Virus record (IMG/VR): IMGVR_UViG_3300049489_001303
Coordinates: 1 to 64,000 of that record
Source of the DNA: a virus
Length of the DNA stretch: 64,000 nt
Reading direction: 5' to 3' (one strand)
The position numbers and the translations under genes are program-made. Every line of letters starts with the position of its first letter. The first letter of the stretch is position 1. Below, one piece after another: positions 1-55,330 of the stretch. Below the pieces are notes generated by a model. It did not search any database. It was not told the DNA's origin and worked only from the letters and a program-made list of their open reading frames with translations.

Positions 1-999
1 CATATCGGTGCCCCCACCCCCAACCATCTTGAGCACATCTTTCCAGGTCCTCAGCTTGGACACACGATGCACCGCGGCGTCGCAGTCTATCACGCCGACT
101 GACTTATACATCTTGCTCAGAGACCCCAGGCACCCGGCCACCCAGTTGCCATGATTGCTCATGGAACCTGAGGTGTCGATCACTGCATAGACTTTGGGTG
201 TGTAGGCGTGACGGCTGGGGAGTAGTATCACATCCCCACGCTCCTGGCGCCGAGAGATGCCGGCCATGTTGTAGTCGGTGCGTCCGGTGATCACCTGGCG
301 CAGTCTTCGACGTACCTTCACACGCCAGTCAAGACGGGGCAGCTTACCCTCCATGCGGGCCTCCGCCCACAGCTTCACCCCATTGGGCACCTCCCCACGT
401 CCCGACGACACAGCGCCCTGAACATCCGCAGCGATGGCATCCCGCAGGGCATCGGCACTCTCCTTATCAACCACACCCTCATCGACGCTACCGGGGGCAT
501 CCAGCTCCCATTCACCCTTCTCACCCCCCACCCCAGAGCCGTGGCATACAGAGATGTTGATCTTCCGGATCTCCACACTGTCGTAGTATTCCTCAGCAAT
601 GAGACCGTCAGGCTTACCAAGCATTGCAGGCATGATACTGTTAGGCAGCGCAGGGGTGATGTCGTCATTGATCTCCGCATCCGTGGCGTAGTTCCACGCC
701 TTGTGATGCCGATCGCCCTCCCTGTCGTTATGTTCCCTCAGCAGGTGCTCGAGCTCATGGCGCATGATCCCCTCGATGTGGAACTGGTGCTCCACAAAGG
801 ACTCGAGCGAATAGTACAGCCGCCAGTACTTATCCACCGCGAAAGTGGGAAACCCCACCTTCAACACTGGCGTGAGCGCAGCAAACCCCCGCGCATAATA
901 GGGGTATTTCTCAGCAGCCTTGAACAAGCCGGTGAAGATCACACTGTGGTCTCTCCCCTCCAGCTTGTTCGCCTCTTCTGTTATGTCTTTAGCATCCAT
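1..999 (-). CDS. DUF2201-like metallopeptidase/VWA protein (3' end outside window)
   Basis: The frame is open from the ATG at 999 to the window edge (333 residues seen). Residues 81-85 read HELEH, an HEXXH zinc-protease motif, followed at about 102-113 by WNYATDAEINDD, as in the N-terminal metallopeptidase-like domain of DUF2201 proteins. Residues 275-281 are DTSGSMS, the DxSxS metal-adhesion (MIDAS) motif of a VWA domain, and GGGGTD at 327-332 fits the next MIDAS element. In this family the protein is normally paired with a MoxR-type AAA+ ATPase, and such an ATPase lies at 2439-3488. The start follows GAGG by 7 nt and overlaps the gene before it by 11 nt. The substrate is unknown; the presence of both domains is clear. 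Confidence 0.85.
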   Translation of the reverse strand, partial: MDAKDITEEANKLEGRDHSVIFTGLFKAAEKYPYYARGFAALTPVLKVGFPTFAVDKYWRLYYSLESFVEHQFHIEGIMRHELEHLLREHNDREGDRHHKAWNYATDAEINDDITPALPNSIMPAMLGKPDGLIAEEYYDSVEIRKINISVCHGSGVGGEKGEWELDAPGSVDEGVVDKESADALRDAIAADVQGAVSSGRGEVPNGVKLWAEARMEGKLPRLDWRVKVRRRLRQVITGRTDYNMAGISRRQERGDVILLPSRHAYTPKVYAVIDTSGSMSNHGNWVAGCLGSLSKMYKSVGVIDCDAAVHRVSKLRTWKDVLKMVGGGGTDM

Positions 1000-1216
1000 T
1001 GAACAACCTCATCAGTTCTTTGGGGCTGAACCCCCTGTCACATACTACACACCTCACACCATCGTCGGGGTGATTAATGTCACAGTAGTCATCCACCTCC
1101 ATGTCAGTCACGTAACCCTCATCATTTATTTCCTTGATGGTAGCATACTCGACAACATGCTGTACATAGGTGAGCTCTGTCCCGCAGAGGGGGCAGTTGT
1201 ATTTTCGCTGAGTCAT
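989..1216 (-). CDS. Zinc-ribbon microprotein
   Basis: A 75-residue protein with two CxxC knuckles (CPLC near residue 8, CVVC near residue 56), which would form one zinc ribbon. The start is preceded by AGAGGA. It lies between the Gly/Asp-rich microprotein array and the HEXXH/VWA gene and overlaps both, so it is co-translated with them. The function is unknown; it may be a small partner of the ATPase/VWA pair (inference from position only). Confidence 0.7.
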   Translation of the reverse strand: MTQRKYNCPLCGTELTYVQHVVEYATIKEINDEGYVTDMEVDDYCDINHPDDGVRCVVCDRGFSPKELMRLFNGC

Positions 1217-1413
1217 TTGAAGTCCTCTGTTGTGACGGCTCTGGTGTTGTATAAGGGCCTGTATTGAGCAACGATGGAGCTTCCTCCACAGCCATCACCG
1301 AAGGTATTGCCATCCCCACACTGGTTGGCACCAAACGTATCACCACCACCATAGGTAGTTCCGAAGGACTGACCATAACCAGTGGCGCTGTCAATATAAC
1401 GGTGAATGCTCAT
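1213..1413 (-). CDS. Gly/Asp-rich microprotein, array member 1
   Basis: A 66-residue protein. The N-terminus MSIHRYIDSATGYG is followed by a stretch of Gly, Asp and aromatic residues (GGGDTFGANQCGDGNTFGDG) and then an ordinary tail. GAGGG precedes the start by 7 nt, and the stop overlaps the start of the zinc-ribbon gene. It is the last member of a run of similar genes that surrounds the MoxR-type ATPase. No known domain was recognised. Confidence 0.65.
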   Translation of the reverse strand: MSIHRYIDSATGYGQSFGTTYGGGDTFGANQCGDGNTFGDGCGGSSIVAQYRPLYNTRAVTTEDFK

Positions 1414-1613
1414 GGGAAATCCCTGAGTGATATTTCAGTGTGGAGACCCCCACCGTCCCCGGTACCAGTTCCGAAAGGCCACCCAAACCCAAATCCTTTC
1501 GCTGACCCGCAGCTGGATCCGAACCCGTTGCCCTGACACCCGAAGCCATCGCCATAACCTGTCCCATTACCGTAGGTGAATGCTTCTTGTAAGTGGTAAA
1601 GGTGGACCCTCAT
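1410..1613 (-). CDS. Gly/Asp-rich microprotein, array member 2
   Basis: A 67-residue protein: a short N-terminus (MRVHLYHLQEAFTYG) and then a core made almost only of Gly, Asp, Phe, Tyr and Ser, with two Cys. GGAGG stands 7 nt before the ATG and is itself coding sequence for the tail of the gene before it (LEDTQ). The 4-nt ATGA overlap with its neighbours implies coupled translation. Function unknown. Confidence 0.65.
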   Translation of the reverse strand: MRVHLYHLQEAFTYGNGTGYGDGFGCQGNGFGSSCGSAKGFGFGWPFGTGTGDGGGLHTEISLRDFP

Positions 1614-1861
1614 TGCGTATCCTCCAGGAGCATCTTCTCACCCTCCCCATCACCGTGCAAATCCGTGTAGCCGTAAACATCGTCCCCACCACACCCGTAG
1701 TCGCCGTCTCCACAACCGTCTCCACTGATACCCGCATAGAATGAACCGAATCCGCAGCCATTCCCGTTTAACCGTGGGGTCGTAGTCCATTCATGGCCCC
1801 CTATGTGCTGATACCCGGCGCCGAATCGGGGGTAGGCATCGGTGATTGTTCGCAGAATCAT
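1610..1861 (-). CDS. Gly/Asp-rich microprotein, array member 3
   Basis: An 83-residue protein. I chose the ATG at 1861 rather than a longer frame because it makes an ATGA overlap with the preceding gene and begins MILRTITDAYPRFGAG, matching its paralogues (MKIITDDFPHFGNG). A GDGCGDGDYGCGGDD core and an acidic end (LLEDTQ) follow. Function unknown. Confidence 0.65.
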   Translation of the reverse strand: MILRTITDAYPRFGAGYQHIGGHEWTTTPRLNGNGCGFGSFYAGISGDGCGDGDYGCGGDDVYGYTDLHGDGEGEKMLLEDTQ

Positions 1862-2034
1862 TGCGTCTCCTCCAAGCCAATGGGGTCGCCCTCGCCATCC
1901 CCACTGAGCATTCCGCACATGCCACACCCGGTGTCTGAGCTACCATCACCGTAACCACTGCCCATACCCCCACCAGCGGGGCCCCCAAAGTCGCCATTGC
2001 CGAAGTGGGGGAAATCATCTGTGATGATCTTCAT
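1858..2034 (-). CDS. Gly/Asp-rich microprotein, array member 4
   Basis: A 58-residue ORF read directly from the minus strand. It starts MKIITDDFPHFGNG, nearly identical to the next gene upstream, followed by a Gly-rich core with CGMCGM and the tail GLEETQ. Both ends are ATGA overlaps. The near-identical N-termini of members 4 and 5 show recent tandem duplication. Confidence 0.7.
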   Translation of the reverse strand: MKIITDDFPHFGNGDFGGPAGGGMGSGYGDGSSDTGCGMCGMLSGDGEGDPIGLEETQ

Positions 2035-2237
2035 TGTGTATCCTTGGGTTCAATAGATGCACCGAAGCCATCGCCATCGAGAACTCCACCTGAACCACAC
2101 CCCGCATCTGTGTCACCACCACCATACCCATTACCCGGGTCGTGGAACATGATATGCTCGCCACCGTAACCGTCACCGTCAGAACCACCAGATGGGCCGT
2201 TGCCGAAGTGGGGGAACTCATCTGTGATGATCTTCAT
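2031..2237 (-). CDS. Gly/Asp-rich microprotein, array member 5
   Basis: A 68-residue protein starting MKIITDEFPHFGNG (paralogue of member 4), followed by GGSDGDGYGG, a variable middle, GNGYGGGDTDAGCG and the tail EPKDTQ. The start is overlapped by the stop of member 6. No homologue was recognised. The repeated Gly-Asp pairs could bind a metal such as calcium, which is inference from composition only. Confidence 0.7.
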   Translation of the reverse strand: MKIITDEFPHFGNGPSGGSDGDGYGGEHIMFHDPGNGYGGGDTDAGCGSGGVLDGDGFGASIEPKDTQ

Positions 2238-2437
2238 TGCATCCTCCCAGCATCAAGACATTCACCAACACCGTTAGCGATGTCGTGAGGATTCTTAACC
2301 TCGCCCCCACCACCATCACCATCCCCGGGATCTCCATCCCCGTAGAGTTCCAGGGCACCTGCACCGTAACCGTCACCATCACTGTATCCAAAGTTGAGAC
2401 CATCACCGGTGTGTCTGTAATCGGTGTAGGTTTTCAT
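2234..2437 (-). CDS. Gly/Asp-rich microprotein, array member 6
   Basis: A 67-residue protein, MKTYTDYRHTGDG followed by Gly/Asp repeats (DGDGYGAG, GDGDPGDGDGGGG) and a Cys-containing tail. It starts one base after the stop codon of the MoxR-type ATPase gene, so it is directly downstream of and coupled to that gene. GGGAGG at its own 3' end is the ribosome site for member 5. Confidence 0.65.
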   Translation of the reverse strand: MKTYTDYRHTGDGLNFGYSDGDGYGAGALELYGDGDPGDGDGGGGEVKNPHDIANGVGECLDAGRMQ

Positions 2438-2438
2438 G

Positions 2439-3488
2439 CTATTTCTTGAACAGCTGATCAGCCCCCGTCAGGCTGTCCACCAGCTTCCTCTTCTCGGGGG
2501 TCTGGGGGATTTCGATGTTGCTCTGTACAGCAGCACGAACAGCACGACGTGTGGCGACCAACGCCACGTCCTTGCGGGCCTTCACGAGCAGCTTGAACAG
2601 GTCACCCATGCGACCATAGGCCAGGGCAACAGACACCGCGGAGTTGAGGGACAGAGCGACGCGATCGCCGCGGGAGGGCAGCTCCACCTTACCATCCAAC
2701 AGGTCTTTGCCGTTGGGCAGCTCCGTGTCCGCGAGCCAGGCAGTAAATTCCGTGCACGCTGCTCCCCCCACCAGCCCGGAGATGCAGGCACGTACTTCCT
2801 TGTCCTTCACGCGCTCCGGACCCACCATCCCGAGCAGCTTGGACACAGCACTCCAGGAGCGTGGCGACGGCCACCCCCGCATCGTTGCAGCGCTCTCCTT
2901 GGGAGGATCGAGCAGAGCCGAAGGAGCATGGGAAATCCACCCTGTTACCAGAGCACGACCCTCTGCACCCTCATTGCCGCCGACTCCCGCAGTTCCCCAC
3001 CCACCCAGCTCACCGGCAATCCACTCCTCATTGTTGAGGGTCCAGTCCAGATGGCACCAGCGGTTAGCGGTCGCGGCGGACAGATCCGTAGGATCCGCGG
3101 CATACTCGGGGGGATTAGCGGCGCCAATGATCTTCACTCCCCGCAGGTCGAGGTCCACCACCCGGCGTTCCTGCACCACACGCAGCAGCGCAGCCTGAAT
3201 CGAAGGCGGTGCGCAGGTGAGCTCGTCGAGCATCAACCACGCCTCACCACCCTTATCCAGCGCTCCCCTCAACCGACGTGCCCACGGCGGCGGAGCCACC
3301 TCCACGCCACTGTCTGTCATGTAGGGCCGACCGAGATCAGTGGGATCCATTGTGGATCCTATCAACACCTCAATGTGCGCACCGGCATCCGCGGCCATCT
3401 TCGTGACAGCAGCGGTCTTGCCTGTCCCCGGAGCACCCCAGAGCAGCACAGGTATATCAGAAGCGATCAATTTGTTGAGTTCTTGCAT
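2439..3488 (-). CDS. MoxR-type AAA+ ATPase
   Basis: A 349-residue protein from the ATG at 3488; an upstream TTG is possible, but MoxR proteins begin close to the nucleotide-binding site. Walker A GAPGTGKT is at 18-25, Walker B WLMLDE at 84-89 followed by the MoxR-like LTCAPPSIQAALL, sensor 1 IIGAANP at 120-126, and an Asn-Arg pair (ANRW) at 141-144 in the arginine-finger region. MoxR ATPases act as remodelling chaperones with VWA-domain partners, and a VWA protein lies at 1-999. The gene sits inside the Gly/Asp-rich microprotein array, which suggests, without proving, that those proteins are clients or regulators. Confidence 0.9.
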   Translation of the reverse strand: MQELNKLIASDIPVLLWGAPGTGKTAAVTKMAADAGAHIEVLIGSTMDPTDLGRPYMTDSGVEVAPPPWARRLRGALDKGGEAWLMLDELTCAPPSIQAALLRVVQERRVVDLDLRGVKIIGAANPPEYAADPTDLSAATANRWCHLDWTLNNEEWIAGELGGWGTAGVGGNEGAEGRALVTGWISHAPSALLDPPKESAATMRGWPSPRSWSAVSKLLGMVGPERVKDKEVRACISGLVGGAACTEFTAWLADTELPNGKDLLDGKVELPSRGDRVALSLNSAVSVALAYGRMGDLFKLLVKARKDVALVATRRAVRAAVQSNIEIPQTPEKRKLVDSLTGADQLFKK

Positions 3489-3511
3489 TGTTTTAAATCT
3501 CTTTCTCACCC

Positions 3512-3724
3512 TCAAAGGGTGTCAGTTTCATCTAAGGAATAGCTGTAGCCACTCCCGGTATCCTTATCGGTTACGCCCCATTCATCGTAGTTGAAATCAT
3601 CATCAGTGCGGCTCTTCCAGGACCAATTGTGGTTTTCATCACTGCTGCCGTTACCATCCGCGTGACCGTAGTCAGAGCCATCTCCCGAGCAGTGGTTGAA
3701 GTCCACAAGGGTGCGTAGCATCAT
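3512..3724 (-). CDS. Gly/Asp-rich microprotein, array member 7
   Basis: A 70-residue protein starting MMLRTLVDFNHCSGDG, then an Asp/Asn/Ser-rich middle (DYGHADGNGSSDENHNW) and an acidic end. It lacks the long glycine runs of members 1-6 but shares the N-terminal plan M-x-LRT. GGGGGAG precedes the start, and an ATGA overlap links it to member 8. It lies directly upstream of the ATPase gene. Confidence 0.65.
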   Translation of the reverse strand: MMLRTLVDFNHCSGDGSDYGHADGNGSSDENHNWSWKSRTDDDFNYDEWGVTDKDTGSGYSYSLDETDTL

Positions 3725-3936
3725 TCGGTCTCCCCCTCAGTGATCCCTGTGGACATGTGTACACGCCACTTGCCACCACCATCACCTGTCAGGATTCGAC
3801 CAAACTCCACGCCCTTACCCATCCCACTCCCCATGCCCCCACCAGAGCCTTCGCCAGCAAACTGGCTGTGGGAGAGCTTACCTACCTGCCCATCACCCAG
3901 GCGGGGTGTGTAGTCTGTGATTGTTCGTAGTCTCAT
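3721..3936 (-). CDS. Gly/Asp-rich microprotein, array member 8
   Basis: A 71-residue protein. I chose the ATG at 3936, which follows AGGTGG by 5 nt and begins MRLRTITDYTPRLGDG like member 3. It has a GEGSGGGMGSGMGKG core and the acidic tail TEGETE. A GTG three codons upstream is less likely. Function unknown. Confidence 0.65.
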   Translation of the reverse strand: MRLRTITDYTPRLGDGQVGKLSHSQFAGEGSGGGMGSGMGKGVEFGRILTGDGGGKWRVHMSTGITEGETE

Positions 3937-4082
3937 GGATACCACCTATAACGATCATCCGCATACGCCAGATTTACTGAGTCGTCATATTCGTGGTATT
4001 CCCCAACACCGCGAGTCACTCTTGCCACAACAGAAGAACCTCCCGCGCCATCGCCAAAAGCGGTACCGTCTCCCCAATTCAT
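3933..4082 (-). CDS. Gly/Asp-rich microprotein, array member 9
   Basis: A 49-residue ORF: MNWGDGTAFGDGAGGSS, then a less biased tail ending DDRYRWYP. It resembles member 10 at the N-terminus. TATAGGTGGTAT before the start is the same leader used by members 8 and 10. Because that leader is coding sequence for the preceding gene, members 9-11 all end in Y-R-W. Confidence 0.6.
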   Translation of the reverse strand: MNWGDGTAFGDGAGGSSVVARVTRGVGEYHEYDDSVNLAYADDRYRWYP

Positions 4083-4261
4083 ATATACCACCTATAAACC
4101 TGGGTAATCATCGGGGTTTCGGGTATCCACTTTTTTATAGAGGCTAAGCCTCCCCCCGCCAAATCCCCAAAGTCCGAACCAGCACCACGCCGATCTTCGG
4201 ACACAGACGAAGAACCCCCAACGCCGTCGCCGAAATCGTCGCCATCGCCCCACCGTATCAT
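4079..4261 (-). CDS. Gly/Asp-rich microprotein, array member 10
   Basis: A 60-residue protein from the ATG at 4261 (AGGTGG 5 nt upstream): MIRWGDGDDFGDGVGGSS, a second Gly-rich patch, and the tail TQVYRWYI. It is a clear paralogue of member 9. The ATGA overlap with member 11 implies coupled translation. Confidence 0.65.
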   Translation of the reverse strand: MIRWGDGDDFGDGVGGSSSVSEDRRGAGSDFGDLAGGGLASIKKWIPETPMITQVYRWYI

Positions 4262-4482
4262 CGCCGCCACCTGTAGTTATCGAGATGCCTGAGGTTATAG
4301 AACGCTCCACTCTTACCCCCACCAAAGCGATCACCGAAGAAGTAGTATTCACCGGCTATGCCAAAGCCGCAGCCATGTTTTTCCCAGTCGTCGTTGCTGC
4401 TTATCAAACAGTCACCCTCTTCAGAGAAATCCTCGCCATCACCTCGCTGGGATGAAAAGTCCTGATCCAGACAAGCTCTCAC
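4258..4482 (-). CDS. Gly/Asp-rich microprotein, array member 11 (GTG start)
   Basis: A 74-residue protein and the first gene of the array. No ATG fits. The GTG at 4482 follows AGGTGG by 4 nt, the leader used by its neighbours. The body contains GDGEDFSEEGD and GIAGEYYFFGDRFGGGKSG, and the tail ends NYRWRR. A strong intrinsic terminator (4499-4531) stands immediately upstream of its ribosome site, so expression would depend on read-through, antitermination or an unseen promoter. Confidence 0.6.
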   Translation of the reverse strand: MRACLDQDFSSQRGDGEDFSEEGDCLISSNDDWEKHGCGFGIAGEYYFFGDRFGGGKSGAFYNLRHLDNYRWRR

Positions 4483-4498
4483 TCTACCACCTCCCACT

Positions 4499-4531
4499 AA
4501 AAAAAGGACCCACAGAATTAACTGTGGGCCC
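4499..4531 (-). terminator. Intrinsic terminator upstream of the Gly/Asp array
   Basis: On the minus strand GGGCCCACAG, loop TTAATT, CTGTGGGTCC, then a run of seven T. It ends the transcript of the gene at 4545-4940. The T run is only a few bases before the AGGTGG ribosome site of array member 11. Confidence 0.85.
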
Positions 4532-4544
4532 CTCTCAATTTAGA

Positions 4545-4940
4545 TCACTTGCCGGCAGCGAGGAGAGTGTCCTCGGTCTTGCCGATCATCTTTTCCCACG
4601 CCTCCACGGACTCCGGACGGATCACGTCCAGCGTCTGATGTATGGCGTCAACCGGAACGTTGATGGGCCACAACCCAGCATCGCAGGTTGTGCTGTCGGT
4701 GGGGCCGTGGTGCACCAGCTGGCCGATGCCGTGCTCAGTGCCCCAGTATCTCAGGGTGGTGTAACGGGGGATAATCACCCAATTGTGCCCCCACTTCTCC
4801 ACATGCTGGATCTCTTCCGGCTTGGTGATGACTACGAAGCCGCGGCCGAACATGATGATGGAGTATTTGACCTCTCCATCTTTGGACAGTTCAGCGATTT
4901 CTTTCTTCTGGGCAGATACATCTTTTTTCTTTGCGCTCAT
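4545..4940 (-). CDS. Hypothetical protein, 131 aa
   Basis: It starts at the ATG at 4940 (AAAGGA 9 nt upstream); a TTG further upstream is unlikely. The N-terminus is lysine-rich, followed by SIIMFGRGFVVITKPEEI and WGHNWVIIPRYTTLRYWGTE, a compact alpha/beta-looking protein. It is followed by a strong terminator. No family was recognised. Confidence 0.55.
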   Translation of the reverse strand: MSAKKKDVSAQKKEIAELSKDGEVKYSIIMFGRGFVVITKPEEIQHVEKWGHNWVIIPRYTTLRYWGTEHGIGQLVHHGPTDSTTCDAGLWPINVPVDAIHQTLDVIRPESVEAWEKMIGKTEDTLLAAGK

Positions 4941-27070: not shown

Positions 27071-27071
27071 G

Positions 27072-27155
27072 TGCAGGAAGAGAGACTCGAACTCTCACGC
27101 CCCGAGGGGCACAGGATTTTAATTCCCGGGCGTCTACCAATTCCACCATTCCTGC
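27072..27155 (-). tRNA. tRNA-Leu(UAA)
   Basis: Acceptor GCAGGAA/TTCCTGC, discriminator A, D arm TGGTGGAATTGGTAGACGC, anticodon stem CGGGA/TCCTG around loop ATTAAAA (anticodon UAA), variable arm GCCCC-TCG-GGGC, T arm GAGAG-TTCGAGT-CTCTC. Complete 84-nt class II tRNA reading UUA and UUG; CCA is not encoded. Confidence 0.93.
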
Positions 27156-32793: not shown

Positions 32794-33480
32794 CTAATAC
32801 ATTCCCCGGAACGGCACACGGTATCTCGGGTCAAATCCAGCTTGCTCCCCCTCAGGGTCGTAGCGTTTCATGGGGGGCATCTGCTGTTGGGCAGGTCCGC
32901 CACGTTTCATGAGGGCTACCAGCGCTGCCAAGAGGAGAGCTCCCACCATCGCCCCACCGACGGGGGCGGCTTTAGAAGCCACGATCGCTTTCTCAGCCAG
33001 TGCTTTATAGTGCGGCTTGAGAATATTCTCACCCACCATATAGCCACCAGCACCCCCAAGCCCCAGAGCGGCAAGGTAGTGCATGGCGGAGTTGTCACTC
33101 GATAGGGCTGTCTTCCCCGGGGCCGGGGCCGCGGGAGCTTTCATAGGTGCGGATGCCGGGCTGTTTGTCTTACCCACTCCAGGCATAGGTACCACCGGTG
33201 TGGGGGTAGCCTTGGGGCGGAAGAGCGCGGAGGGAGACTGAAGACCGGCCGCAGCCACCTTGTCACCCTCTCCGGCACGTAAGGAGTCCAACTTCCTGTC
33301 GAAGTCTGAGATGGCCCGTTGATAACGGATGTCCTGCAGCTTGTCCATGATGGCGTTGCGAGCACTGTTGCCTTCAACGATCTGCTGCAGACCAGCTCCC
33401 CCCAACGTCCCACCGAGGATAAGGGCCAGTTCTTTGTCGCCAGCTGAGGCAACTTTCAAAAATGTGTGCAGGTGTGTCAT
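32794..33480 (-). CDS. Putative virion protein with Gly-rich membrane-like segments
   Basis: A 228-residue protein: MTHLHTFLKVASAGDKE (hydrophobic-x-K-x-A motif), ALILGGTLGGAGLQQIV, a Pro/Ala-rich linker, then two more Gly-rich hydrophobic stretches (AALGLGGAGGYMVGE; GGAMVGALLLAALVALM). Such proteins may be packed in the head or cross the membrane on infection (inference). Confidence 0.5.
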   Translation of the reverse strand: MTHLHTFLKVASAGDKELALILGGTLGGAGLQQIVEGNSARNAIMDKLQDIRYQRAISDFDRKLDSLRAGEGDKVAAAGLQSPSALFRPKATPTPVVPMPGVGKTNSPASAPMKAPAAPAPGKTALSSDNSAMHYLAALGLGGAGGYMVGENILKPHYKALAEKAIVASKAAPVGGAMVGALLLAALVALMKRGGPAQQQMPPMKRYDPEGEQAGFDPRYRVPFRGMY

Positions 33481-34028
33481 TGCTTGGCCGCCTCATGCAG
33501 TGCTTTCTGGTTACTGATGTCTTCCATCAACAGGGCGCGAAGTGCTTCACGGGCACTACGCTCACGGGAGCCACTTTCTGAGCGATGCTTCAGCATGCTG
33601 AGCAGCGCACCAGCTCCCGCGCCGGCCACGGGCAGGGCCTTCATGCCAGTGGGCAGGGCCTTCAGGGTCTGTCCCACACTCTGACGGGTCAAGCCTTTGG
33701 CCAGCAGGTCCTTGATGGGCTCAAAGGCTTTTTCGCCACCATGGAGACGTGCACCCACACCCCCCACCGACCCACCGATGAAGGCATTAAAGGCGTGACT
33801 GCCGGGGTCGGAGTGTTCCCGCTCGGAGCGGATGATCTCTTCTGTTGGAATACCGGCTTCCAGCCCTTTGGACACACGCTCGTAAACGTCGATCGGAACC
33901 CACTTGTGGGAGCCGGGTAGACGTTCACGGCGATCTCCGGGAACAGGAATATTAAAAGGCATACCCGGGACATTCACCCACATGGGCAGGTCCGCGGCGT
34001 GCTTGATAAACTGATGGAGTATCGACAT
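33477..34028 (-). CDS. Putative virion protein with Gly-rich segments
   Basis: It starts at the ATG at 34028 (GAGGTG upstream). MSILHQFIKHAADLP carries the K-x-A motif; later AFIGGSVGGVGARLHGG and a helical basic end. A TTGGGA-N17-TATACT promoter lies just upstream (34046-34074). Confidence 0.55.
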   Translation of the reverse strand: MSILHQFIKHAADLPMWVNVPGMPFNIPVPGDRRERLPGSHKWVPIDVYERVSKGLEAGIPTEEIIRSEREHSDPGSHAFNAFIGGSVGGVGARLHGGEKAFEPIKDLLAKGLTRQSVGQTLKALPTGMKALPVAGAGAGALLSMLKHRSESGSRERSAREALRALLMEDISNQKALHEAAKQ

Positions 34029-34045
34029 GATCACCTCGCCCTATA

Positions 34046-53218: not shown

Positions 53219-55330
53219 TCAGCCATCAACTATTATCCAACCCAGCCATTCAGCCAATTTATCAAGGTCAACTTCGGGTAGAGTTACCGCGCTGTCCGGG
53301 GTAGCTACCATCTCAGGCAGAATACTGGCGATTTTTTCTCCAGAGGCCAACTGTGAGAGTTTAACTGATGCCGTACCACCTCTAAGGCCTTGTAAGGTGC
53401 CCTCAATAGAAGGCCGCACAGCATTTTCAACACTACGCACAGCCTTCTGTACGCCTGTTCTACCCAGACCTTTATGCAGTAAAGCCGACCCACCGAGCAG
53501 GGAGATAATGGGATGGTTACTGGTGAATTCACCGGCAGTATCCATCATGCGCCGCGGCAGCGGCAGGCCCGGATGCCCTAGGGGAACACCATCATAGCTA
53601 CGACGTTTCTGGTCATATGCCAGAGCAGCCATGATGCCCAGCATCGTCATTGTAGGGATAGCCACGGGGTACTTACCCATAGTGTTGGCTACCGTATTTG
53701 CCACAGAGGACATCTTGGACAGCTCTGTGGTGATAGGCACCGGTACACCCTGGTCTGTCATGTAGTGCTTGCCCATTGTAGGACGCGCAGCATACCCTGC
53801 AGCAGCCAGGCCGGCGGCAAGCAGCGGGTGTTTGATAGGACCTACCGACATACCGCCCTTGGGCAGTGCACTACCGATCAGCTTGTAGGCGCCACCCAGT
53901 AACGCCGCTCCCCCCAACGTCTTAAGGAGGTTGGCACGAGCGATGTCATCATGAGACCTTATAGCAGCCCCACGGGTGGTAGCATAAACCTCTCCCGTAG
54001 CGGGATCTGTCAGTGTAAACTGTGTGGTCTTTCCGGGATCCTGTTTCCAATCTTCAGGAATGGCACGACGCTTGAGGTACTCATAAACACCCCCGCGTTT
54101 CTCAACGAAAGGCGTAAGGGTATCAGTCAAGTCTCCACGAACGTATTCCGGGCCGAAAGCCAGAGCGCCGGTCTTAGCTAACTGCTCCATGATCTGAGGA
54201 TGGTCCTCCAGCAGTTCAATAACTCCGGACTGGACGACTCCAGCGTTGTCGAGCATCCGCTGTGATATCTTCTGAATATGCCCCTGCTTGTAAGCGCTGA
54301 CCTTCAGGAACTCAGCAGCGCTTAACTGCATCCCCCCAACGGCCATCGCCGAAGAGACGACCTCAGGAAGGGAGTAAGAGGCGAGCTTCTGTACAGTCTC
54401 CTCGGGGAGATCCGGGGTGTTCGCCGCAATACCCTGGGCATAGGGGCGCATCTTGATAAGGTTCTGATACTCTTCGGTGGACATATTGTCCGGGATAGAG
54501 TCTACAGACACTCCACGAACGACCTTATCAATAACGGCCAGCTTCTTTGCCGCCAGTTTCTGCTGCTCCATCCCGTCGAGATACTCCCCCGCCGCGGCGC
54601 CGGAAATAACCTCGTAGGCCTGGTTGTTGGCAACCTTCTTGAGCATGAATGCTGTGGCGTCTGCTGGCCTGAACACCCAGGAGATATCAAAAAACTTGGG
54701 AGAGGGATTCAACGCAGCCACCTTCTTACCGTCGATGACTTCTTTCATCTGAAACTTGAGGTGGTTGCAGTATTGGGCGCGGGTGGGAGCCGTATTCCCA
54801 CAAATCGTGCAGCGATCGAACGGGACCCTGGTGCCCATACTCACAGGCGGAAACTCACCAGCTGCAATGCGCTCTGCGAGGTCAGGGGCTTTAGAATTAT
54901 CCAGATCCACCACGAGTTCTACGCGGTGCATTGTAGGATTCCAGAAGGCCCTGAGAACTTTACCCACAGCTTTTTGCGGGTCTTTATTTACATGGTGCCG
55001 GAAGTTGTGCGCCGATTCAAACGACTTGTAGTGCTGCACCAGCGTCTCTTTGTCGCTGATCCAAGGGGGATTCAGGTGCGACATATAGGGGCTCTCAGGA
55101 AACCCATCGCCATTGCGGTTCTCACCGTAAAACTCCCACGACCCCAACGCCAGAACGTAGACAATACTGTGGCCTGGGATGGGGGTGATAGTCTTGAAAT
55201 AGTCGTTGGCCACGCTGGCATGTTTGGTGAACTGCTCATAGCACGGCTTACCATTGGCCCAGAGAACTACGGGCTGGATGGAAGCTTCCCCGGTAGGGAA
55301 GTAGGGATCTATTTCGACTATCTTATGCAT
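53219..55330 (-). CDS. Prohead protease-like protein with long C-terminal extension
   Basis: A 703-residue protein. Residues about 55-240 resemble a phage maturation protease: GENRNGDGFPES (70-81), a His-rich strand (AHNFRHHV, 107-114), a VVDLD strand, GEFPPVSMGTRV with Ser164, then a knuckle CTICG...YCNH (174-190). The order His then Ser(-M-G) fits the assemblin-type serine protease fold, but the triad is not proven. The C-terminal 450 residues are helical, with Gly-rich hydrophobic stretches (LGGAALLGGAYKLIGSALP) and many K-x-A motifs, which is unusual for a protease. It may be packed as a virion protein. Confidence 0.6.
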   Translation of the reverse strand: MHKIVEIDPYFPTGEASIQPVVLWANGKPCYEQFTKHASVANDYFKTITPIPGHSIVYVLALGSWEFYGENRNGDGFPESPYMSHLNPPWISDKETLVQHYKSFESAHNFRHHVNKDPQKAVGKVLRAFWNPTMHRVELVVDLDNSKAPDLAERIAAGEFPPVSMGTRVPFDRCTICGNTAPTRAQYCNHLKFQMKEVIDGKKVAALNPSPKFFDISWVFRPADATAFMLKKVANNQAYEVISGAAAGEYLDGMEQQKLAAKKLAVIDKVVRGVSVDSIPDNMSTEEYQNLIKMRPYAQGIAANTPDLPEETVQKLASYSLPEVVSSAMAVGGMQLSAAEFLKVSAYKQGHIQKISQRMLDNAGVVQSGVIELLEDHPQIMEQLAKTGALAFGPEYVRGDLTDTLTPFVEKRGGVYEYLKRRAIPEDWKQDPGKTTQFTLTDPATGEVYATTRGAAIRSHDDIARANLLKTLGGAALLGGAYKLIGSALPKGGMSVGPIKHPLLAAGLAAAGYAARPTMGKHYMTDQGVPVPITTELSKMSSVANTVANTMGKYPVAIPTMTMLGIMAALAYDQKRRSYDGVPLGHPGLPLPRRMMDTAGEFTSNHPIISLLGGSALLHKGLGRTGVQKAVRSVENAVRPSIEGTLQGLRGGTASVKLSQLASGEKIASILPEMVATPDSAVTLPEVDLDKLAEWLGWIIVDG

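Follow-up and report, generated by a model that had tools for sequence, protein, structure and literature searches.

What are the short Gly/Asp-rich genes that lie among a chaperone-like gene pair at the end of this phage record, and with which protein do they go? The window, the whole stretch of DNA analyzed here, spans 64,000 nucleotides (positions 1 to 64,000 of IMG/VR record IMGVR_UViG_3300049489_001303); the source phage is unclassified, and the record is 170,144 bases (170 kb) long. The locus of interest, array A (989–4497, minus strand), comprises eleven microORFs, a MoxR-type AAA+ ATPase gene, and a CxxC gene, running into a DUF2201/VWA gene. The first-pass annotation had cast the microproteins as clients or adaptors of the MoxR and VWA proteins, or as products that these process. 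Beyond one adjacency, that of array A itself, we found nothing to tie them to this pair.

The two larger genes are as originally described. The DUF2201 metallopeptidase and VWA protein (1–999, minus strand; Pfam PF13203, 2.9e-13; phrog_1314, 1.1e-29, and alignment) displays the HELEH and DTSGSMS motifs and lacks its C-terminus, as the record stops within the VWA domain. The ATPase (2439–3515, minus strand; phrog_1297, 1.1e-39; Pfam AAA_5, 3.1e-9) carries Walker A (GAPGTGKT) and Walker B (LMLDE) motifs, shows 30% to the MoxR of S-TIM5, and starts from a TTG codon at 3515 or, alternatively, from an internal ATG near 3488. Upstream of it on the minus strand lie the microORFs A1 (4258–4482, open frame to 4497; Gly/Asp/aromatic-rich), A2 (4079–4261, open frame to 4270) and A3 (3933–4082, open frame to 4091; both Gly/Asp-rich), A4 (3721–3936; Gly-rich), and A5 (3512–3724; Asp/Gly/aromatic-rich). 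Downstream, on the same strand, follow A6 (2234–2437), A7 (2031–2237, MKIITDEFPHFGNG...), A8 (1858–2034, MKIITDDFPHFGNG...), A9 (1610–1861), and A11 (1213–1413), all Gly/Asp-rich by ORF composition, with the Gly-rich A10 (1410–1613) between the last two; A7 and A8 share 60% identity. A terminator-like hairpin with a T run (4495–4548, minus strand; −25.3 kcal/mol, z −5.4) sits immediately upstream of A1 and divides the array from the preceding gene. The proposed zinc-ribbon microprotein does exist as a gene for a 75-a.a. protein with a CPLC...CVVC arrangement (989–1216, minus strand); however, its Pfam and NCBIfam zinc-finger matches were all sub-threshold, so that the label "zinc ribbon" comes from the cysteine pattern and the assignment is putative.

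The organization of array A supports the microORFs being coding, as judged from ORF overlaps, Shine-Dalgarno sequences, and a third-position excess. The ORFs overlap stop-to-start, with Shine-Dalgarno sequences embedded in the 3′ tail of the preceding gene: that of A3 (AGGTGG) lies in the A2 tail YRWYI, and that of A4 (AGGTGG) in the A3 tail YRWYP. The longest chain of overlapping ORFs (≥45 a.a.) numbers 13, compared with a mean of 3 and no more than 7 across 300 dinucleotide-shuffled sequences. Chains of 11–16 also occur in the remaining minus-strand arm (to ~27 kb); close packing is therefore normal in this arm, and only composition sets array A apart. Glycine codon use resembles that of the long genes, with a variable third base, and differences between copies at codon positions 1, 2, and 3 number 78, 95, and 121 (p = 0.005). 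Values of pN/pS between copies were 0.50–0.78, obtained from protein-level alignments, which favor such values. The products, rich in Gly, Asp, and aromatic residues, are probably disordered; AlphaFold2 returned a model of A7 without confident structure (pLDDT 43).

The pair itself has known relatives. MoxR and vWA (metallopeptidase) proteins have been described as a chaperone/co-chaperone pair in group 2.2 jumbo phages, with a proposed role in virion assembly, with processing of structural proteins (PMC7824862). The present pair has the features of these phage pairs, namely a Walker A/B AAA+ protein and a HEXXH DUF2201 domain fused to a VWA domain with a MIDAS site. It falls in the same families (phrog_1297 and phrog_1314/DUF2201) as the pairs of S-TIM5, PA5oct, the Schitoviridae, and the group 2.2 jumbo phages (PMC7824862), with two close, co-directional genes as in those pairs. 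Unlike those pairs, it has A6–A11 and the CxxC gene between MoxR and DUF2201, and the genome carries a second, ordinary pair (90.6–95.2 kb), with no microproteins beside it and only 23–25% identity to the first. The AAA+ and VWA partner architecture is also common to RavA-ViaA, NorQ-NorD, and CbbQ-CbbO, but these have defined clients, unlike the present pair, and lack the N-terminal HEXXH metallopeptidase domain of the VWA partner seen here. MoxR-vWA ternary conflict systems (PMC7159879) likewise combine MoxR and VWA proteins, but their ATPase is of the bpMoxR type, to which ours is a weak match (E 0.012; 15.2 bits against a Pfam cut-off of 27), and the β-propeller third component was not seen near the pair among the ORFs read.

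Microprotein arrays have no general link to MoxR. The first-pass annotation had accepted that related phages carrying the pair alone would count against its proposal, and this is largely what we found: of 13 phage loci sampled for their MoxR and/or DUF2201 genes, none had Gly-rich microORFs. DUF6745, a domain of unknown function discussed below, was likewise found in none of these 13 sampled phages. Conversely, an HMM search found DUF2201 in none of seven phage records with DUF6745, most of which have arrays.

The overlapping minus-strand run of eleven microORFs was correctly reported, but the set was incomplete. The full 170,144-base record revealed twelve additional Gly/Asp microORFs outside the window, at 155193–156814 and 165377–165819 on the plus strand and at 169168–170023 on the minus strand, for a total of at least 23 small Gly/Asp-rich genes in three clusters (arrays A, B, and C). 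These share their composition and an N-terminus, M[KR]xxTDxxP..GDG. Neither array B nor array C adjoins a MoxR/VWA pair. Array B overlaps a DUF6745 gene (PF20530, 1.2e-18) by 8 nt in the same direction; DUF6745 adjoins this array only and is not adjacent to array A. The Gly/Asp family was not found in other viral contigs, where three strict DNA patterns gave zero or chance matches only, single-protein scans for MoxR, VWA, and A7 returned no close relatives, and a tblastn search of phages with A7, with the low-complexity filter on, gave no match.

DUF6745 is linked to repeats across viruses and bacteria. We surveyed viral DUF6745 loci in one pattern-based scan, taking the best 80 of 116 and calling repeats by a 12-nt lag score. 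A 12-nt repeat lay in cis at 34 of these 80, 35 had one in trans no more than 3 kb away, and 66 had either form. Among the 51 non-redundant loci within these best 80 of 116, 32 had a cis repeat, 18 a trans repeat, and three both, while one had a far repeat only and three had none. Thus, 47 of the 51 carry a 12-nt-period (tetrapeptide) repeat inside or within 3 kb of DUF6745, and the cis and trans forms are mutually exclusive (Fisher p = 7e-7). Repeat density, in the same best 80 of 116, was 0.082 near DUF6745 versus 0.013 beyond 5 kb. The trans arrays, of up to 27 ORFs, nearly always run in the direction of DUF6745, often with a gap of 4–100 nt, and bacterial DUF6745 genes carry an xxQV repeat in cis, as in phages. 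In the cultured phage Ma-LMM01, by contrast, the DUF6745 protein gp174 has neither an internal repeat nor a neighboring array. The DUF6745 structure model was confident (pLDDT 84), and a fold search with it found no PDB relative and matched, among viral models, only DUF6745 or unnamed proteins.

Array B resembles these systems in that DUF6745 abuts overlapping, low-complexity ORFs of ~60–80 a.a. on one strand, within the 50–100 a.a. range and with the coupled starts of DUF6745-linked arrays. Other DUF6745 loci, however, have xxQV or xxSV repeats of period 4 in a uniform 12-nt unit (CAA-GTC and nearly uniform DNA in the QV arrays), whereas the Gly/Asp arrays have a dominant period of 2 (z 11), a weaker period of 4 (z 6.9), and non-uniform Gly codons. 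The present DUF6745 is also shorter, without the C-terminal part found in relatives. Given that the Gly/Asp arrays lack tetrapeptide periodicity, they are a distinct variant and no plain member of the class, and the differences in period and DNA uniformity mean that the two kinds of array may differ in ancestry or function. Among other identities tried, calcium-binding RTX repeats (GGxGxDxUx) were set aside because the microprotein repeats read differently, and a search of a defence-system library gave nothing convincing.

Several explanations compete for the microproteins. A role as clients or adaptors of the MoxR ATPase and HEXXH/VWA protein, or as targets of their proteolysis, would agree with the single co-directional, overlapping run holding both genes, with the habit of MoxR/VWA pairs of remodeling dedicated clients, and with the structural-protein processing proposed for phage pairs (PMC7824862); the pair in array A, being far diverged from the second pair, could also be specialized. 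We nevertheless consider this unlikely in view of the 13 sampled loci and second pair without microORFs, the arrays B and C without a pair, and the seven DUF6745 records without DUF2201. Scarcely better placed is the suggestion that the arrays arose by tandem duplication and do little in particular, as selfish or drifting expansions, or else act as hypervariable decoys directed at proteases or defence proteins of the host. The quick divergence of copies, the absence of confident structure, the variation in copy number and site, the confinement of the Gly/Asp family to one genome, and the nearly uniform DNA of other phages' arrays, as slippage expansion would yield, all suit such an origin. Against it, the Gly/Asp copies show a third-position excess, have kept their frames open, and carry Shine-Dalgarno sequences as well as N-terminal motifs; the mutual exclusion of cis and trans repeats at DUF6745 loci points to a function for the class at large.

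Two further readings appear very improbable. Short genes in tandem, whose products begin alike and then vary in a Gly/Cys-rich remainder, recall RiPP-like precursors, modified and then cleaved with the metallopeptidase as protease, but YcaO and radical SAM proteins are both absent from the record, several copies are cysteine-free, and no other modification enzyme was seen nearby. Slightly less credible still is a non-coding repeat, acting as DNA or RNA, with incidental open frames: low-complexity composition and the near-uniform QV arrays elsewhere would fit, yet in the present genome the glycine third base varies as in ordinary genes, and the third-position excess, stop-start overlaps with Shine-Dalgarno sequences, and a 13-ORF chain exceeding any shuffle all speak against it.

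On sequence grounds, DUF6745 is the more likely partner of the Gly/Asp microproteins than MoxR/VWA, because it adjoins array B here and similar, differently composed clusters accompany it in many phages. We tentatively favor, as quite possible, the reading that the microproteins go with DUF6745 as its detached, multi-copy repeat segment. They would then bind the DUF6745 protein or a common target multivalently, tandem duplication and sequence change would let the phage vary dose and specificity, and MoxR/VWA would be an ordinary phage chaperone/co-chaperone pair in a common operon with array A. The microproteins are most likely a distinct member of the DUF6745-linked class. They may be equivalent to the tetrapeptide family; the link of the Gly/Asp family to DUF6745 is one adjacency, no stronger than that to MoxR/VWA, because three strict patterns found the family in no other viral contig. 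The fuller proposal is more doubtful: DUF6745 and its repeat microproteins may together constitute a hitherto undescribed system, widespread in phages and also present in bacteria, whose module lies inside the protein or is detached (in up to dozens of copies), here as a chemically different Gly/Asp set placed in part within a chaperone-protease operon.

The initial claim that no described phage system has this arrangement holds for the arrays but not for the MoxR/vWA pair, which was already known (PMC7824862); in the open literature, we found no PMC paper on DUF6745, its repeat strings, or tandem Gly-rich phage small proteins. What emerges is a testable comparative pattern, in which the tetrapeptide repeat of DUF6745 lies either within the protein or beside its gene, spread over many very small overlapping genes, and rarely in both places. 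The Gly/Asp set suggests that an array may switch chemistry yet keep its gene architecture. DUF6745 would gain its first genetic partner, and a large number of low-complexity phage ORFs, easily missed in annotation, may thereby have a use.

The first-pass annotation placed a MoxR ATPase, a HEXXH/VWA protein, a zinc-ribbon microprotein, and eleven microprotein genes in one minus-strand run; all were found on the minus strand, and related open reading frames (ORFs) also occur outside the window. The window comprises bases 1-64000 of a 170,144-base record from an unclassified tailed phage, which encodes an RNA polymerase beta-like protein, a helicase, a primase, an endolysin, and ParB-like proteins, and a DNA polymerase with ~26% identity to the best Bacillus SPO1-like phages among the matches listed. 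The longest chain of overlapping ORFs in the region of array A (the eleven microORFs, window 1213-4497) is 13 (shuffles: mean 3, maximum 7). Given that chains of equal length occur elsewhere in the same 27-kb minus-strand arm, dense packing of small genes is simply a trait of this arm as a whole (window 1-27600, 11-16 ORFs in a chain per 4.6 kb), which extends up to a tRNA-Leu(TAA) (27071-27155). We also noted that, of 203 ORFs picked by a mechanical rule, 32 share a short motif at the N-terminus, [hydrophobic]-x-K-x-A, whereas shuffling gave 14 on average and 26 at most. Among its carriers are ORFs at window 32794-33480, 33477-34034, and 53219-55330 and record 154000-154890, and one of the carriers is a head-protease-like protein (FTKHAS); the motif is possibly a targeting or maturation-cleavage signal.

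Twelve related Gly/Asp-rich ORFs lie elsewhere in the record: seven in array B (155193-156814, plus strand), two in array C (165377-165819, plus strand), and three near the record end (169168-170023, minus strand). Arrays A, B, and C have an N-terminal motif in common. Given that array A and the last three ORFs share a direction and each approach one end of the record, they may be one array interrupted by assembly ends; a search for an end repeat found none. No family member was found in other viral contigs, using search patterns strict enough for distant relatives to escape. Array C is adjoined by a lipoprotein-like protein (LVAGC) that contains an extended Asp-Ser/Thr/Ala-Asp repeat (record 164373-165380; L002 14229-15236).

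Across all 23 copies, Gly accounts for 22% and Asp for 8% of residues; those in array A are 50-83 aa long with a pI mostly of 4-6. Most array A microORFs are preceded by a Shine-Dalgarno-like sequence that falls within the end of the gene before; the common tails (YRWYP/YRWYI/YRWRR, ..DTQ/ETQ) thus reflect, in part, the translation of ribosome-binding sites. A terminator-like hairpin (-25.3 kcal/mol, z -5.4) sits directly upstream of the first. Gly codon use resembles that of long genes, inter-copy differences are commonest at the third codon position (78/95/121 at positions 1/2/3, p=0.005, DNA-level alignment), and pN/pS between copies is 0.50-0.78 in protein-level alignments, which are biased towards such values. 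This codon evidence that the microORFs would be genes is modest but consistent. AlphaFold2 gave no confident structure for A7 of array A (pLDDT 43, 15-sequence alignment), which suggests a disordered protein. That the microproteins arose by expansion and do little that is specific, or that they act as decoys, seems rather unlikely.

The proposal that the microproteins are tied to the MoxR/VWA (MoxR/DUF2201) pair, as its clients, draws on their adjacency in array A, which stands. However, the highly diverged second pair of this genome (90564-91781 and 93598-95172; L005 420-1637 and 3454-5028; 23-25% identity to the first) has no Gly/Asp microORFs around it, nor has any of 13 loci sampled from phages that carry MoxR, DUF2201, or both (S-TIM5, Phosso, PA5oct, TMA, Zuri, At2, inbricus, cto1L10, MinM2, SCTP-2, phiKT1024, Kpn16-P2, and phiFa). 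The association is thus a single case, and the client reading is unlikely. The pair has already been described in jumbo phages, with a proposed aid in virion assembly (PMC7824862).

The last ORF of array B overlaps by 8 nt with the next gene, which encodes DUF6745 (PF20530; 1.2e-18) of ~213 aa, without the C-terminal part found in relatives; directly after it lies a small membrane-like protein with HEGSH (HExxH; record 157464-157883). DUF6745 relatives in other viral contigs adjoin arrays of overlapping ~60-aa ORFs with four-residue repeats (e.g., WDQV-RDQV), and such ORFs (xxQV, xxSV) beside DUF6745, or their repeat inside it, were seen at L015, L017, L018, L034, L044, L057, L078, and other viral loci. 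Using a 12-nt periodicity score, with a threshold reached by none of the 13 MoxR/DUF2201 phage loci, repeats were scored across the best 80 of 116 viral DUF6745 loci from one scan and called inside DUF6745 in 34, outside within 3 kb in 35, and either in 66. Among 51 non-redundant loci, the repeat was inside in 32, outside within 3 kb in 18, both in 3, only farther in 1, and absent in 3, making the two placements mutually exclusive (Fisher p=7e-7). Repeat density was 0.082 near DUF6745 versus 0.013 beyond 5 kb. Where the coding frame was readable, arrays of up to 27 ORFs almost always shared the strand of DUF6745, often at a gap of 4-100 nt. Bacterial DUF6745 genes carry internal repeats, either xxQV as in the viral loci (Singulisphaera, Piscicoccus, a Deltaproteobacterium, and Ruegeria) or xxNI, xxNL, or xxQL repeats. 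One Roseovarius MAG chromosome (OX638333.1) holds at least five DUF6745 loci with equal match statistics (L114-L117, L120), and two of the loci checked share one xxNL insert; this may reflect either multiplication of a mobile element or an artefact of assembly. A DUF6745 with insert was predicted at pLDDT 84, the helical insert at ~55-60, and the model matched no solved structure. DUF2201 was absent from seven DUF6745 phage records (HMM) and DUF6745 from the 13 MoxR/DUF2201 phages, leaving the present genome the only one among those examined with both.

The Gly/Asp arrays show a period of 2, more weakly 4, and varied codons, whereas the QV (xxQV) arrays differ in both. In the latter, CAA encodes almost every Q (CAG in bacterial cases) and GTC almost every V, a near-uniformity that suggests slippage or DNA-level constraint, hinting at DNA-level homogenisation. 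The two kinds of array may therefore resemble each other in gene architecture yet share neither ancestry nor function. Our preferred reading, held tentatively and at somewhat less than even confidence, is that the Gly/Asp family is related to a class of detached repeat microproteins linked to DUF6745, and that MoxR/VWA is an ordinary chaperone pair in the same operon. The link between DUF6745 and repeats is not universal, given that gp174 of Microcystis phage Ma-LMM01 (NC_008562.1 154027-155163; L133 6947-8083) is a DUF6745 with neither repeat nor array; encoded in a named phage, gp174 is a possible experimental entry to DUF6745.
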